From: a virus
Length of the DNA stretch: 28,169 bases
Strand: one strand, 5' to 3'
Virus record (IMG/VR): IMGVR_UViG_3300030116_001217
Span: 1 to 28,169 of that record
Shown: positions 6,147 through 18,039 of the stretch, piece after piece
Layout of the letters: each line of letters begins with the position of its first letter
How positions within the stretch are numbered: the first letter of the stretch is position 1
Made by a program: the position numbers and the translations under genes
The notes under the pieces: generated by a model
The model's database searches: none
What the model was told of the DNA's origin: nothing
The model's input: the letters and a program-made list of their open reading frames with translations, nothing else

Positions 6147-7802
6147 TCAATATCCAAATGTCGAATCAGAAGGTTTAAATATATCTCTTTTTATGCCTCT
6201 TAACCTTTCTAATGGACTATCCATTCTAGGTCGACTCATAATCATATAACGTAAAGCGTCATATGCGTGGTCCGAAGCATGAGTATCTACATCTTCTGGA
6301 TTGGTCTTTGATAGTGGTATACTCTGTAATTCTCTAATTAAATTAGGGCATGTATTGAATATTTGCAACTTAGGTCTACCACTTTCTCGGACCTTTAAAT
6401 ATTCGTGTATTTGGATTTTGCCTTGAACTCTATTCTTATCAGCACGTCTTAACTTATGACCTGCTCTAAGTAAGGCTTCTCCAACAGTAGGTCCTGTTGT
6501 TCCAGTTCTAGCCCAAGCTGCTGTATCCAATACACCGTTTACTGAAAATGGGTCTACCATCTCCATATCAGTTATTATACTGCCTAATTCTTCACCTGTC
6601 AAGCCTTTTTTATATAATTCTCTATAAATTATTAAAGTACCATCATTCATATCTATAGTTCCCCATAGACAACAACTTTCTGAAGCATACCCGTAGTCAA
6701 TGCCTTTTACACGTTCCCAAGACAAAGGTATCTCAAAAGGTGTAATAATATGTGCGTCTGGGTCAAACTCTACGAATGCAGCACCTTCTGCAACATCCCA
6801 GTTTCCTTCTAATAACTGTCTACGTTGAATAGGCGGTAACGAGTTAAGCATTTGCTCGTACACACCATCTTCAGATAAATATGGATTGTCTGCAAGTTTT
6901 GCAGGAATAAATTTACGAGTTAGTCCATCTGTACCTACAAAACTTTTATTAGATTCTTCTGGTTCTATGTATCTTTTCTTAACCCAACTTGAACCAACAC
7001 CACCGGGGTTAGCAGTACATCGAAGATAAGTTTTTATTTCTGGGTCAGTTGTTCTAAGACGAGAAGCTAAATAGTTCCAACTAAACTCTGTAGGTAAGTG
7101 TGTTATTTCATCAAACCCAATCCAAGAGTATGCTTGACCTTGATATCTATAAACATCTGCATCACGTTCTAAGAAACCAAACTCTATTTTTGCACCACTT
7201 GGAAAGTTCCAAAGTTTTTCTACTTCTCTAAACTTAGCACCGGGAAATGCTTGTGGGTATAACTCTCGGCTTTTATCTATCATTTCTCGCAACTCTGGCA
7301 TAGACCTACGAAGTATTAAAGCACGATGAGCTTTTTTGTGAGCATATCGGAGGGGGTCTACCAACATTGCGTATGACTTTCCCCCACCTGCAGCACCGCC
7401 ATATAGTACGTCTTTTTCGTCTGCAGCTAAGAAATCTGTTTGTGGTCCTTCGTTAGGATGAAATAAAACATTTGCATCTTTAAGGTCTTCTTGGACTGCC
7501 TTGGGAAGTGCTGAAATATCTGAATCAGTAACAAGTGTTTGTTCACCGCTACCAATATTTTCTAAAGTTGTTTTTTGTTTTTTTAAAGAAGTTTTAGCGT
7601 TCTTTAGTTTTTGTTCTAGTTTTTGAATATTTTTTTGTTTTCTAGAAACTGTTCTCTGTGCTGCTAACTTTGCTTGTTCTGCAGTATTAGGGCGACCTCC
7701 TTTTTTTCTAGGAGTACCATCTTTTTTTAAAACAAAGTTACCGTCTTTATCTTGCAAGTAAAGATGAGGGTTTTTCTCCCAATCTTTTATCTCTTGGTCC
7801 AT
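6147..7802 (-). CDS. terL: Terminase large subunit (packaging ATPase-nuclease)
   Basis: The 551-residue protein has the full packaging motor: Walker A GGAAGGGKS (135-143), Walker B SWIGFDE (226-232, catalytic E232), coupling motif TANPGG (263-268) and an RNase H-like nuclease with acidic residues D369 (GIDYG), D426 (VLDTAAW) and D511/D515 (ASDHAYD). Before the ATPase lies an unusual 110-residue extension with an AT-hook-like PRKKGGRP (31-38) and a Lys-rich coiled coil (about 50-83). The start overlaps the upstream gene by 56 bases and has no good ribosome site, so coupling is likely. It translocates DNA through the portal encoded next and cuts concatemers. Confidence 0.95.
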   Translation of the reverse strand: MDQEIKDWEKNPHLYLQDKDGNFVLKKDGTPRKKGGRPNTAEQAKLAAQRTVSRKQKNIQKLEQKLKNAKTSLKKQKTTLENIGSGEQTLVTDSDISALPKAVQEDLKDANVLFHPNEGPQTDFLAADEKDVLYGGAAGGGKSYAMLVDPLRYAHKKAHRALILRRSMPELREMIDKSRELYPQAFPGAKFREVEKLWNFPSGAKIEFGFLERDADVYRYQGQAYSWIGFDEITHLPTEFSWNYLASRLRTTDPEIKTYLRCTANPGGVGSSWVKKRYIEPEESNKSFVGTDGLTRKFIPAKLADNPYLSEDGVYEQMLNSLPPIQRRQLLEGNWDVAEGAAFVEFDPDAHIITPFEIPLSWERVKGIDYGYASESCCLWGTIDMNDGTLIIYRELYKKGLTGEELGSIITDMEMVDPFSVNGVLDTAAWARTGTTGPTVGEALLRAGHKLRRADKNRVQGKIQIHEYLKVRESGRPKLQIFNTCPNLIRELQSIPLSKTNPEDVDTHASDHAYDALRYMIMSRPRMDSPLERLRGIKRDIFKPSDSTFGY

Positions 7803-8046
7803 ACTTTTTATCTATGTGTTTTTTCAATCCCGGAGTAGATAGTTTTCTACCTGTTTTATATTCCAACCAATCACAAGCTTCTTGTAGACTACACTCTTCA
7901 TTTACAATCATACTTTCTGCAAAAGATAAAGCATCTAGTTCTTCTTCAATAGGTTTTAAATAATTAGGAGTATTTTCATCTATTTCATACCCAAAAGGAA
8001 TAGTAGATGTAACTCTTCTTATATAACCATCTGGAACTAACTTCAT
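7747..8046 (-). CDS. Helix-rich DNA-binding-like protein upstream of terL, 99 aa
   Basis: The chosen start (MKLVPDGYIRRV) lies 4 bases after the previous stop; a longer frame upstream exists but overlaps a well-supported gene. Residues 35-85 (YLKPIEEELDALSFAE, then CSLQEACDWLEYKTGRKL and TPGLKKHIDKKYG) look like a helix-turn-helix with a basic recognition helix. I recall similar segments at the N-terminus of large terminases of related phages, so this may be a detached terminase domain that recognises DNA. Its end overlaps terL by 56 bases in another phase. It competes with the 138-residue protein at 10347-10763 for the small-terminase role. Confidence 0.6.
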   Translation of the reverse strand: MKLVPDGYIRRVTSTIPFGYEIDENTPNYLKPIEEELDALSFAESMIVNEECSLQEACDWLEYKTGRKLSTPGLKKHIDKKYGPRDKRLGEKPSSLLAR

Positions 8047-8951: not shown

Positions 8952-9011
8952 ACCCATTGCGTTCCTTCGATATCTCTATCTACTTCCGGCTTTTACAAGC
9001 TGAACGAAAAT

Positions 9012-10372: not shown

Positions 10373-10763
10373 AGTCTACATCTATAGCTTGTTTTTCAGG
10401 TAAGATAAAAATACCACCTGTTGCATTATGGTTAACCTCAACTCTATCAGTCTTAGCAACACCAACTCTATCTAGGATAGTTTGGGCTGCGGTCAATTTT
10501 TGACTAGCTTGAGGTATAGGTCTATCTGATTCCATCATCTGAACTAACTTAAATGCAGCCTTTGGAGCAGAACGAGCAAGTACATCCGAGGCTAAATCGA
10601 CTACTTCTTCTCTTAATGATTTTAATACTTGATAGTGATTGCCTGAGTATCCTGCTAACTCTGCGGACTTTTTAAAGTCGCCATCTGTTGTAACAAGATT
10701 ATCTAAAAAAGCCTGTTGCTTTTCAGTTAAATTACGTTGTTTCTTAGGTTCAAGATAAGACAT
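10347..10763 (-). CDS. terS: Terminase small subunit candidate
   Basis: The 138-residue protein begins LTEKQQAFLDNLVTTDGDFK and AELAGYSGNHYQVLKSLREE, an N-terminal helix-turn-helix typical of small terminases (LT-KQ-FL, then AA-AGYS). A central helical part (AAQTILDRVGVAK) and a short acidic C-terminal tail follow, also as in the family. Small terminase recognises the packaging site and activates the large subunit. It is the first gene of the leftward block, right behind a perfect sigma70 promoter whose expected start point is only 2-3 bases before the ATG, so its mRNA would be practically leaderless. terL is separated from it by about ten small genes, an uncommon arrangement. Confidence 0.8.
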   Translation of the reverse strand: MSYLEPKKQRNLTEKQQAFLDNLVTTDGDFKKSAELAGYSGNHYQVLKSLREEVVDLASDVLARSAPKAAFKLVQMMESDRPIPQASQKLTAAQTILDRVGVAKTDRVEVNHNATGGIFILPEKQAIDVDYEDISDRS

Positions 10764-10771
10764 ACCTTATT

Positions 10772-10800
10772 ATTATAGAGGCACTTTATAAATTTGTCAA
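10772..10800 (-). promoter_or_regulatory. Perfect sigma70 promoter of the leftward (late) block
   Basis: On the minus strand TTGACA (10800-10795), a 17-bp spacer and TATAAT (10777-10772) match the sigma70 consensus completely. The -10 box ends 8 bases before the ATG of the small terminase gene, so transcription should begin at about 10765 and give a leaderless or nearly leaderless message. Confidence 0.9.
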
Positions 10801-10815
10801 GTATTAAAATAATGC

Positions 10816-10844
10816 TTGACAAAATGGAAAGAAAAATATATAAT
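10816..10844 (+). promoter_or_regulatory. Perfect sigma70 promoter of the rightward block
   Basis: TTGACA (10816-10821), 17 bp, TATAAT (10839-10844). Its -35 box lies 15 bp from that of the divergent promoter, and the two form an imperfect 11-bp inverted repeat (TGTCAAGTATT / AATGCTTGACA, one mismatch). Transcription would start near 10851 and run about 520 bases before the first ORF. Confidence 0.9.
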
Positions 10845-10935
10845 AAAGGTGTAGCCGGCGGGGGTTAACTACATATTATAGAGCCTGAAAAATACTTTAC
10901 AAACCTAGTTAATTTTATATAAACTTTATAAAGTT

Positions 10936-11007
10936 GGGGGGTCACTGGTTAATACTGTAAAGCTTTGTAAAATGTAGAAGCACTATAGTATATCCCTAGT
11001 ACCCCCC
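10936..11007 (+). other. G6/C7 long stem-loop in the rightward leader
   Basis: GGGGGGTCACT (10936-10946) can pair with AGTACCCCCC (10998-11007) with a single bulged C, closing a 51-base loop that contains a smaller palindrome ACTATAGT. Runs of six G and seven C are striking in DNA this rich in A and T. It is not followed by a T run, so termination is not suggested. Confidence 0.5.
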
Positions 11008-11071
11008 CTGTATATCCTGCCCACCCATTTACCACACTTCACAAACTTTGTCAATACTTCCAAACCTTTTG

Positions 11072-11085
11072 GAATAAGCTTATAA
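11072..11085. repeat. 14-bp palindrome, copy 1
   Basis: GAATAAGCTTATAA, a one-mismatch member of a palindromic set with consensus TTATAAGCWTATAA. Others lie at 11141, 11636, 11708, 13187 and 13210. It sits right beside the TTCCAAA hairpin. Candidate operator. Confidence 0.5.
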
Positions 11086-11140
11086 ACCATGCACACTTTT
11101 TAGAATTTGTCAAGTTTTTTCTGCTCCCACTTCACAAATT

Positions 11141-11154
11141 TTATAAGCTTATAA
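11141..11154. repeat. 14-bp palindrome, copy 2 (perfect)
   Basis: TTATAAGCTTATAA is fully palindromic. It is the best-matching copy of the set and lies in the non-coding control region. Candidate operator for a dimeric regulator. Confidence 0.5.
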
Positions 11155-11372
11155 CTTTTTTAAAAAAAATAAAATAAAACTTTACAAACTTTTTAAGTTG
11201 TGTTAGCTGGTTAACAAGCTTGACAAGTCTTATGAAGTTTGAAGATTATTATTAAAACTTCACAATGGTTATAAAAATTATTCTGTTTATTCCAAAATAT
11301 TCTAAAAAATACTTGACAATGCTTTACAAGTATTAGAAAGTTACACCATTAATAATTTAAATGGAGTAAAAA

Positions 11373-11462
11373 ATGCTATATAAAAAAGATACTTTAACTG
11401 ATACACTATCTGAGTTAGATATTTTAGACGAGTTAAATTCAGAAGATATCGTTATCAGATAA
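11373..11462 (+). CDS. 29-residue leader-like peptide
   Basis: ATG at 11373 follows ATGGAG, a moderate ribosome site. The frame encodes MLYKKDTLTDTLSELDILDE and nine more residues, an acidic Leu-rich amphipathic helix. Ten bases after its stop comes a strong intrinsic terminator, so it is the only ORF on the transcript from the perfect promoter at 10816 if termination is efficient. It could be a short regulatory peptide or an attenuation-type leader. No Trp/His-type codon run is seen. Confidence 0.5.
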   Translation: MLYKKDTLTDTLSELDILDELNSEDIVIR

Positions 11463-11471
11463 ACTAAAAAG

Positions 11472-11505
11472 AAAAGCCCTCAATAGCAATATTGGGGGTT
11501 TTTTT
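11472..11505 (+). terminator. Strong intrinsic terminator after the leader ORF
   Basis: GCCCTCAATA-GCAA-TATTGGGGGT forms a 10-bp stem (two G-T pairs) with a GCAA tetraloop of the GNRA type, flanked by A4 and T7 that extend the stem. The T run is directly attached. It ends the short transcript and separates it from the early gene cassette. Confidence 0.88.
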
Positions 11506-11629
11506 GTGCCTTTTTGAAATATACCCCTAGAAAGCCCATAATCGCCCTGTATGCAAAAACTTTATTTTCTGGTACTTTGTATCATCTTTTTTGCTCAAAA
11601 GCATTACAGGAAAGTCAAGGGTTGCAAAC

Positions 11630-11742
11630 TTTTAATTATAAGCATATAACTAAAAAGTATTGGACAAATTTTATAAACTATGTTATTTAAATGTTTATAA
11701 CTTTTAGTCATAAGCATATAACTAGAAAGTACTTTACAAATC
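11630..11742 (+). repeat. Pair of about 41-bp direct repeats, 72-bp period
   Basis: 11630-11670 and 11702-11742 match at most positions, with an identical core ATAAGCATATAACTA and a shared AAAGTA followed by ACAAAT. Each copy holds one 14-bp palindrome (11636 and 11708). The second copy supplies the -35 box of the promoter of the next gene. The rest of 11463-11788 contains no gene that I can support. Confidence 0.7.
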
Positions 11743-11761
11743 TGAAAAATTCCTGTAAAGT
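11733..11761 (+). promoter_or_regulatory. Sigma70-like promoter with spanning inverted repeat
   Basis: TTTACA (11733-11738), 17 bp, TAAAGT (11756-11761). An 8-bp perfect inverted repeat ACTTTACA (11731-11738) / TGTAAAGT (11754-11761) runs from the -35 to the -10 box, which is suited to a repressor. It would drive the gene at 11789. Confidence 0.6.
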
Positions 11762-11788
11762 AGTTTGCATAAATTGTGAGGTGTTTAT

Positions 11789-12118
11789 ATGAAGAATGGT
11801 AAATTCTTTTTTAATGCCAAAGAATTTGAGGTTATTACTAATAATGGATATAAAATATTTATCCATAAAAGAACCCGACAATCTCAGGTTTTAAGGCAGA
11901 TACAACAGCACCATATAGAAAGGGTAGATATTACTTTTAATAAACTTACTAATTCTATAATGGTAGTTAAGACTAATAGACTTAATGAATTCGGCAAGTC
12001 TGTAAATGGGAAAGGAACTGTAATATCTAGTCAGAAAGGTTTAACAGTTAGAGTAAAACAAAAAAGACCACCTAGCAAGTGGCAAGAACCAAAATTGACA
12101 AGATTGGTTTTAGCATAA
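11789..12118 (+). CDS. Basic early hypothetical protein, 109 aa
   Basis: First sizeable gene of the rightward block. ATG follows GTGAGGTGTTTAT with GAGG as ribosome site. The product has an N-terminal beta-like part (FNAKEFEVITNNGYKIFIHK), a basic helix RTRQSQVLRQIQQHHIERVD and a very basic C-terminal third (QKRPPSKWQEPKLTRLVLA). Its net positive charge and first position behind an operator-like promoter would suit a DNA-binding regulator. No known motif confirms this. Confidence 0.65.
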   Translation: MKNGKFFFNAKEFEVITNNGYKIFIHKRTRQSQVLRQIQQHHIERVDITFNKLTNSIMVVKTNRLNEFGKSVNGKGTVISSQKGLTVRVKQKRPPSKWQEPKLTRLVLA

Positions 12119-16013: not shown

Positions 16014-16071
16014 AATTATATTAATAATAATAATAAATATTATTATATATTATAAAATATATAATAATAAT
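16014..16071. other. 58-bp tract of A and T only
   Basis: No G or C occurs between 16014 and 16071. The tract is made of TAA/TAT repeats (for example AATAATAATAATAAATATTA). It forms the leader of the next gene and would melt easily. It could be a DNA-unwinding element or a simple spacer. Confidence 0.7.
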
Positions 16072-16865: not shown

Positions 16866-17110
16866 ACGACATAGAGATTGCTATTGTTATTGATGAGCAA
16901 GGAAAGAAACATGAAGTGTATGGTACATGGGAAGAGGTAGAAAGATACGCTGATAGTATAGATGGTTGGGTTGATAAGTATCTTGACCATCTTGCTCCAT
17001 GCATGGTACAATCTAACTTTACTTACATTGGCGATGGACACGACCCATACCAAAAGAGTAGAGGATTTAGTTACGAACAGGGAAAAGTAATTAATATTTT
17101 AAAATGGTAA
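16862..17110 (+). CDS. Hypothetical protein, 82 aa
   Basis: The start MNDIEIAIVIDEQGKKHEVY is chosen over an upstream ATG because it overlaps the previous stop in ATGA and follows AAGGAAG. A beta hairpin, then a helix with TWEEVERYADSIDGWVDKYL, then the aromatic end SRGFSYEQGKVINILKW. Function unknown. Confidence 0.6.
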   Translation: MNDIEIAIVIDEQGKKHEVYGTWEEVERYADSIDGWVDKYLDHLAPCMVQSNFTYIGDGHDPYQKSRGFSYEQGKVINILKW

Positions 17111-17113
17111 GAC

Positions 17114-17142
17114 TTGCAATCTTATTCATTATATGTTATAAT
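17114..17142 (+). promoter_or_regulatory. Sigma70 promoter of the structured leader
   Basis: TTGCAA (17114-17119), 17 bp, TATAAT (17137-17142). It begins 3 bases after the preceding stop. The predicted start at about 17149 coincides with the first base of an 11-bp stem-loop. The GACTTGCAA context is repeated in the promoter at 17559. Confidence 0.8.
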
Positions 17143-17149
17143 GTATCCT

Positions 17150-17310
17150 TTAATACAGTTGCCCTCACAATAACACCTTCCTAACTGTATTAAGTGGACT
17201 GCAAAAGTCTGAAAAAAAGTAGGGTATTCCAGTAAGGGATTACTACAGGAAGGAATTTAAATGTGTTCCTGTCGAGTGGGTTTACAAGCACTCTATAAAC
17301 ACCGCCCTAC
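17150..17310 (+). ncRNA. Predicted structured RNA leader or small RNA
   Basis: Reading 5' to 3': TTAATACAGTT (17150-17160) pairs perfectly with AACTGTATTAA (17183-17193); GGACT pairs with AGTCT (17196-17210). Then GTAGGG (17219-17224) pairs with CCCTAC (17305-17310) and encloses three hairpins: AGTAA/TTACT (17231-17244, GGGA loop), ACAGGAA/TTCCTGT (17245-17272) and GAGTG/CACTC (17274-17293). GTTTA (17280-17284) in the last loop can also pair with TAAAC (17296-17300) as a pseudoknot. The four-way junction recalls a tRNA outline, but arm lengths and loops are not those of a tRNA. It ends 16 bases before the next ATG, so it may be a cis-regulator or an independent RNA. Confidence 0.55.
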
Positions 17311-17326
17311 AATATCATGAGGTAAT

Positions 17327-17581
17327 ATGTTTTACACTTACAACGAGCAACTTGACAAAACTTTTCAATGGTCTTGGAAGAAGTCGTGCCAAGAGAAACA
17401 ATATTGGAAAACTTGGATACAAAAGAAAAGTGATATACAATTAATTGATGTGCCGAAAGAACATCATCAGATAGTATTAGATGAACTATGGGAGGACATG
17501 CAAGAGGATATACAACACACTAGAGAATTAATTAACAAACAAAGAAGAGAAAAAAGACTTGCAAATAAAAATAAAGTGTGA
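17327..17581 (+). CDS. Basic hypothetical protein, 84 aa
   Basis: ATG follows ATGAGGTAAT with GAGG as ribosome site, directly after the structured leader. The product begins MFYTYNEQLDKTFQWSWKKS, is Trp-, Lys- and Gln-rich and ends in a basic helix NKQRREKRLANKNKV. If the leader is a regulatory element, this is its nearest target. The promoter of the SSB gene starts within its 3' end. Function unknown. Confidence 0.6.
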   Translation: MFYTYNEQLDKTFQWSWKKSCQEKQYWKTWIQKKSDIQLIDVPKEHHQIVLDELWEDMQEDIQHTRELINKQRREKRLANKNKV

Positions 17582-17587
17582 TATAAT
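17559..17587 (+). promoter_or_regulatory. Sigma70 promoter of the replication genes
   Basis: TTGCAA (17559-17564), 17 bp, TATAAT (17582-17587), giving a start near 17594 and a 35-base leader before the SSB-like gene. It shares GACTTGCAA with the promoter at 17114. Confidence 0.8.
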
Positions 17588-17628: not shown

Positions 17629-18039
17629 ATGTATGAATATGTAACAGGAAAGGCGATGTGGGCTAACATTACTACACCCAACACTCGCTTTGGTGACCCT
17701 AAATATCAGATAACAGTATTAACTGATGAAGATACTGCATCTTCTTTAGAGGCTATCGGATTATCTCAGGTAAGAGATAAGTCTGGTCAACCTAAGTATG
17801 ACCAACCTGCTTTTTCTTTCAGTAGAAAAGTAAATGTAGGAACTCGTGTTAACGAAGCACCTAAGTTAGTGGACACAGAAAACAATCCACTAGATGTGTT
17901 GGTTGGAAATGGTTCTGAGGTTAAGGTTAAAATCAAACCTTACTCAAATAACTTTGGAACTTTTGCTGAACTTATGGCAGTAAAGGTAGATAAGTTAATT
18001 GAGTATCAAGAAGAAGATACTGATAACGAGGAGTTTTAA
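17629..18039 (+). CDS. Single-stranded DNA-binding protein, gp2.5-like
   Basis: The 136-residue protein begins with YVTGKAMWANITTPNTRFGD and PKYQITVLTDEDTASSLEAI, continues SFSRKVNVGTRVNEAPKLVD and KVKIKPYSNNFGTFAELMAV, and ends in the acidic tail QEEDTDNEEF with a terminal Phe. The beta-rich OB-like body and acidic tail ending in an aromatic residue are the marks of T7 gp2.5-type SSBs, whose tail binds the polymerase and helicase. AAGGAG lies 8 bases before the ATG. It stands at the head of the replication genes, supporting the call. Confidence 0.8.
   Translation: MYEYVTGKAMWANITTPNTRFGDPKYQITVLTDEDTASSLEAIGLSQVRDKSGQPKYDQPAFSFSRKVNVGTRVNEAPKLVDTENNPLDVLVGNGSEVKVKIKPYSNNFGTFAELMAVKVDKLIEYQEEDTDNEEF

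Follow-up and report, generated by a model that had tools for sequence, protein, structure and literature searches.

The window analysed here, a stretch of 28,169 nucleotides from the viral record IMGVR_UViG_3300030116_001217, contains between an early promoter and a small open reading frame two structured RNA elements, a promoter-proximal hairpin (element L) and a 93-nt pseudoknotted cassette (module A). Judged by the related viral loci, the two are independent and separable. Comparison of these loci leaves us highly confident that both folds are real. Module A has been exchanged between distant phages, as the identities given below show. As a tentative reading we prefer an early leader made up of two independent RNAs, in which module A is itself a functional RNA and acts in trans.

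Two elements downstream of an early promoter

Direct inspection of the letters at positions 17114-17326 agreed with the sequence and the coordinates of an earlier note on this DNA. A sigma70-type promoter, TTGCAA-N17-TATAAT, is situated at 17114..17142 (+ strand; 10/12 match, with a TG before the -10 box, i.e. extended -10). Its expected start is ~17149-17150 and, as the earlier note had claimed, it directly precedes an 11-bp perfect stem beginning at 17150. Sites matching this pattern are no commoner in the region than by chance (14 vs 14.1) and the promoter call therefore rests on context. A AACTTGCAA..TATAAT promoter is also present upstream of the element in the related loci L003, L006, L007, and L010.

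The leader is followed by ORF84 (17327..17581, +), an open reading frame for a small early protein without a Pfam or PHROG match, with a Shine–Dalgarno-like TGAGG at 17318..17322 (+). A second promoter copy of the same type, TTGCAA-N17-TATAAT (17559..17587, +), is located upstream of the gene of a gp2.5-like single-stranded DNA-binding protein (SSB; 17629..18039, +; phrog_112 match), the landmark of the locus. The DNA before this SSB promoter (17530-17587) shows an 81% match over 58 nt to a promoter annotated in Pseudomonas phage LUZ24. According to its polymerase and terminase (51% and 65% identity) the phage is a relative of the Pelagibacter phages HTVC103P, HTVC104P, and HTVC115P. Elsewhere in the window a glutamine riboswitch aptamer (RF01739) was found at 8956-9008 (- strand) with 57 bits, exceeding the gathering score. 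In a ~1-kb AT-rich gap between divergent operons (10763-11789) motifs like TTTACAAACTT recur, and the gap also contains a short open reading frame with an ATG start (11374-11463) and a terminator-like hairpin at ~11470-11510.

Using the SSB protein as query, 80 viral loci were collected and the regions upstream of SSB were aligned. The blast matches in these regions covered either the hairpin half of the leader (L003-L007, L010) or the junction half (L018, L020, L031). Moreover, A and L occur at separate loci in L106, L140, L150, and L155. What had been described as a single integrated leader is instead composed of two separable elements. The folding energy of the leader is unremarkable (z about -1.3 to -1.8 for the whole leader and z = -2.4 for module A alone), and the case for the structures therefore rests on comparison and covariation. 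In the related phages the pairings of both L and A are preserved with compensating changes.

The P1 hairpin of element L spans 17150..17193 (+), with the stem 17150-17160/17183-17193 and the loop GCCCTC..CCTTCC at 17161-17182. The 11-bp stem is perfect and, compared with shuffled sequences, has z = -5.6; all further perfect hairpins in the window with at least 11 bp and a loop of at most 30 are part of a single AT palindrome at 16038. In the relatives element L consists of a stem with the loop GCCCTC..(A)CTTCC and an H-type pseudoknot, CAAG-N3-4-xCGGT-CTTG-..-ACCGx, sometimes with a second hairpin as well. Its alignment comprises 35 distinct rows with 97.8% of the cells paired and 18/23 pairs changed on both sides (slid controls: 30-42% paired), numbers obtained from an alignment that was fitted to the covariance model and is biased towards structure. 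The covariance model of L matches across marine phage loci. In the window, model R1 matched 17139-17245 with 24.1 bits (E = 0.005). This divergent member has kept P1 and is missing the downstream H-type pseudoknot of most relatives. A weakly predicted small hairpin, GGACT/AGTCT (17196..17210, +), replaces the P2 hairpin and the H-type pseudoknot of the relatives and found no covariation support within the window clade.

In the examined phages element L is located upstream of SSB, either directly (L040, L150) or across ORF84 and/or a promoter, and in the L085 fragment the sequence downstream of L differs from that of other phages. Within ~5.4 kb around the SSB genes of HTVC115P and HTVC103P element L was not found. 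The cultured pelagiphage HTVC115P has a ~400-nt noncoding, hairpin-rich leader before SSB (7518-7922; L257 2090-2490), which is unlike L or A.

The fold of module A

Copies of module A were gathered by pattern scans of viral contigs and with a covariance model, which yielded ~20 distinct full-length copies. In the window, model R2 matched 17219..17311 (+) with 114 bits. The closing helix P0 comprises the GTAGGG/CCCTAC pairing already noted earlier, whose coordinates hold (17219-17224/17305-17310, 16 nt upstream of the ATG at 17327). The complete 5' strand of P0 (17219..17225, +) pairs with 17304-17310. P0 covaries with two-sided changes in 4/7 pairs, and the variants GTAGGG/CCCTAC, GTAAGG/CCTTAC, and ACAAGG/CCTTGT occur among the copies.

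The aligned copies support a fold in which P0 encloses a classical pseudoknot, formed by the crossing helices Pa and Pc and holding Pb in its first loop, followed by Pd. The 5' strand of Pa (ATTCC, 17226..17230, +) pairs with GGAAT at 17252-17256; this helix is 98.9% paired and shows two-sided changes in 3/5 pairs. The Pb hairpin, AGTAA-GGGA-TTACT (17231..17244, +), is 88.4% paired, its stem being disrupted in a minority of the copies, and its loop is GGGA or GCGA (GNRA type) in every aligned copy. The pseudoknot helix Pc is formed by CAGGAA (17246..17251, +) and TTCCTG (17266-17271) and is 97.4% paired and nearly invariant. It is compensated in the divergent L221 (ACAGC/AGCTGT, read by eye) and retained in the circular permutant L238. 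Covariation in related phages supports what the earlier note had proposed in general terms, a structured RNA near the promoter that includes a pseudoknot. The Pd hairpin, GAGTG/CACTC (17274..17293, +), is 100% paired with the variants GGATG/CATCC and GAATG/CATTC. A second pseudoknot, Pe (17280..17300, +), might be formed by GTTTA (17280-17284) and TAAAC (17296-17300) with a tight loop geometry; in the aligned copies Pe is invariant or changes by wobble only, which gives no covariation proof.

Over 19 copies, aligned with MAFFT without fitting to the structure, 96.5% of the cells were paired and 10 pairs were changed on both sides, compared with 40-47% of cells paired in slid controls. A fold with three hairpins was tried as well. 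Its helices are 83-85% paired with zero two-sided changes, which is worse than the pseudoknot helix set. The four-way junction of three hairpins in a row that had been proposed is merely the minimum free energy structure, and the pseudoknotted fold suits the relatives better. In L238 the helices of module A occur in circularly permuted order and are closed by a new stem. This permuted copy (L238 515-625) is surrounded by a long structured stretch of apparently noncoding DNA on a contig of 60.8 kb.

Comparison with Rfam 15 at the site (17050-17400) gave no match up to E = 5 with gathering and permissive thresholds, and in the related loci nothing beyond chance was found. A twister ribozyme was considered on account of CAAG..AUAAA and UAAACACCGCC strings; Rfam gave no match to it. 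ARAGORN detected no tRNA or tmRNA in the window; the structure is, as stated earlier, not a tRNA, and the tRNA-like outline ascribed to it was not borne out. A distant DNA search of a collection of named phages with the region, the L147 array, and module B returned only the promoter match, to LUZ24-like phages. One DNA pattern for module A gave six matches in host genomes, all of them chance on inspection. Since no homologue was found in Rfam, in the named phages, or with this one pattern in host genomes, there is no function to borrow. The literature search found no description of these RNAs. By these comparisons the module A family is absent from Rfam 15, the IMES marine RNAs (reportedly those of Weinberg 2009) being outside the comparison.

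Distribution of module A and further modules

Module A was found in ~20 distinct viral contigs at unrelated intergenic sites. No record holds more than one confident copy, most records being contigs and possibly fragments. The copy of the window is 96% identical to that of L151 and 94% to that of L147. It is only 77% identical to the copy of L031 and 73% to that of L018, though both hold A at the same SSB locus. The polymerase of the L151 record is only 35% identical over 150 residues to that of the window. No primase-helicase match was detected in the L151 record, and the L147 fragment gave neither a polymerase nor a primase-helicase match. The entire records of the cultured relatives HTVC115P and HTVC103P do not contain module A.

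The genes downstream of module A vary and include ORF84, a primase-like open reading frame (judged by eye), and open reading frames without assigned function. In several phages A is immediately flanked by a stop codon or promoter on one side and a Shine–Dalgarno site on the other, a placement resembling that of a cis element. Promoter-like sites are present just upstream of 5/20 copies of A, 8/45 of B, and 6/15 of L, compared with about 3% at random positions.

Module A is accompanied by other folded modules in differing order in L147, L156, L106, and L158. These arrays of structured modules (A, B, D, E, and others) are situated at L147 1140-1660, L156 12440-12830, L106 7580-8000, and L158 720-985. 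Module B was found in ~45 distinct contigs, again never with more than one confident copy in a record. Its closing stem covaries (two-sided changes in 10/11 pairs) and its inner loop is exchangeable. It is absent from the window genome and from HTVC115P, the one of the two cultured relatives that was searched. In L148 (3550-3830) module A is nested within a loop of module B, and the leaders of the L003-L011 group differ in which modules are present. Compared with its close relative L072, L073 carries at 1331-1470 a ~105-nt structured insert, apparently a filled/empty site of module C.

Possible functions of the leader RNAs

In the explanation that we tentatively prefer, element L is the resident 5'-terminal hairpin and is part of a leader that precedes SSB in phages of this group. 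Module A is a self-contained pseudoknotted cassette; it would be transcribed early from the promoter at 17114 and would fold regardless of context by means of its closing stem. It may act on a host target, i.e. a component of defence, RNA processing, or translation, and would be comparable to the tRNA genes that phages keep in arrays of variable composition. Phage tRNA gene arrays are similar in that they consist of short, stable, single-copy RNA units and differ in content and order, and module A shares the variable closing stem; unlike them, module A has neither a tRNA fold nor an anticodon, and its core is pseudoknotted. The action in trans, for which our confidence is likewise limited, is favoured because the neighbours of module A vary, its copies are single, and the arrays are combinatorial. 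Of the kinds of RNA suggested by the earlier note, a stand-alone viral RNA is favoured over a protein-binding leader. Against a riboswitch speaks the change of downstream gene from one phage to another: the genes that follow module A do not form a coherent set.

The main rival, possible but less probable, is a cis-acting leader controlling its own mRNA with the P1 loop masking the Shine–Dalgarno sequence of ORF84, by protection of the 5' end against decay, or by a put-like modification of RNA polymerase. The argument for cis control is strongest for element L, in which CCTCA (17163-17167) of the P1 loop is complementary to the TGAGG of ORF84, a suggestive match only. In the relatives GGAGGGC at the downstream Shine–Dalgarno site faces the GCCCTC of the L loop (37/469 GGAGG starts in partly redundant viral DNA). 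This match is weak evidence because any Shine–Dalgarno sequence is partly complementary to CCTC. Also in favour of a cis-acting leader are the position of L upstream of SSB and a P1 stem that begins where the promoter's +1 is expected. For the put antitermination RNAs of phage HK022, positions at an early promoter or ~270 nt beyond it are described (PMC9378689), and the leader resembles them in being a structured RNA just after or within ~270 nt of such a promoter. They comprise two stem–loops in ~70 nt, a pseudoknot being unmentioned (PMC9378689), and the fold of module A differs from this. In phage T4 the pseudoknot of the gene 32 translational operator directly adjoins gene 32 and has UUAAA repeats (PMC535899). 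The relatives, too, have in element L an H-type pseudoknot upstream of the SSB gene, but the window lacks that pseudoknot, and ORF84 and the second promoter intervene before its SSB gene. A second promoter between L and SSB is also present in many relatives, which argues against a cis leader, as does the variable gene downstream of A. Furthermore, the copies of A are single, whereas generic leader elements could be reused, and action in cis accounts poorly for arrays that combine several modules.

Small pseudoknotted folds with a freely varying closing stem, of which circularly permuted forms are known, are typical of the hammerhead (PMC3088659) and twister ribozymes. Module A, with its compact pseudoknotted core, freely varying closing stem, and circular permutant, could accordingly be taken for a new self-cleaving ribozyme that would process the early transcript. 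We consider this improbable, since Rfam gave no match at the site up to E = 5, ribozyme families included, and the permutation demonstrates a robust fold, not catalysis. That module A is selfish mobile DNA of the MITE or REP type, its folding being incidental, is very improbable: near-identical sequences do occur at unrelated sites, but there is at most one copy per record, variation is greatest at the ends (P0), which covary instead of forming fixed terminal repeats, selection on the RNA is indicated by the compensatory changes and by the GNRA-type loop, and inspection of the SSB locus by eye showed no duplicated target.

Going beyond this locus, we tentatively propose that marine phages may possess a toolbox of undescribed pseudoknotted RNA cassettes, present in one copy each per genome and passed among unrelated phages. 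Their arrays would be interchangeable, with nesting in some cases, and would often follow an early promoter. Module A, missing from Rfam 15 and with a fold robust enough to withstand circular permutation, would be one of them, trans-acting or catalytic in host takeover. Few classes of structured RNA combine a conserved pseudoknot with a circular permutant. As the array is exchangeable, function is directly testable by comparison of phages that have a given module with phages that lack it. Action of the cassettes in trans, if true, would constitute a new layer of phage–host interaction in some of the most abundant bacteria of the ocean.
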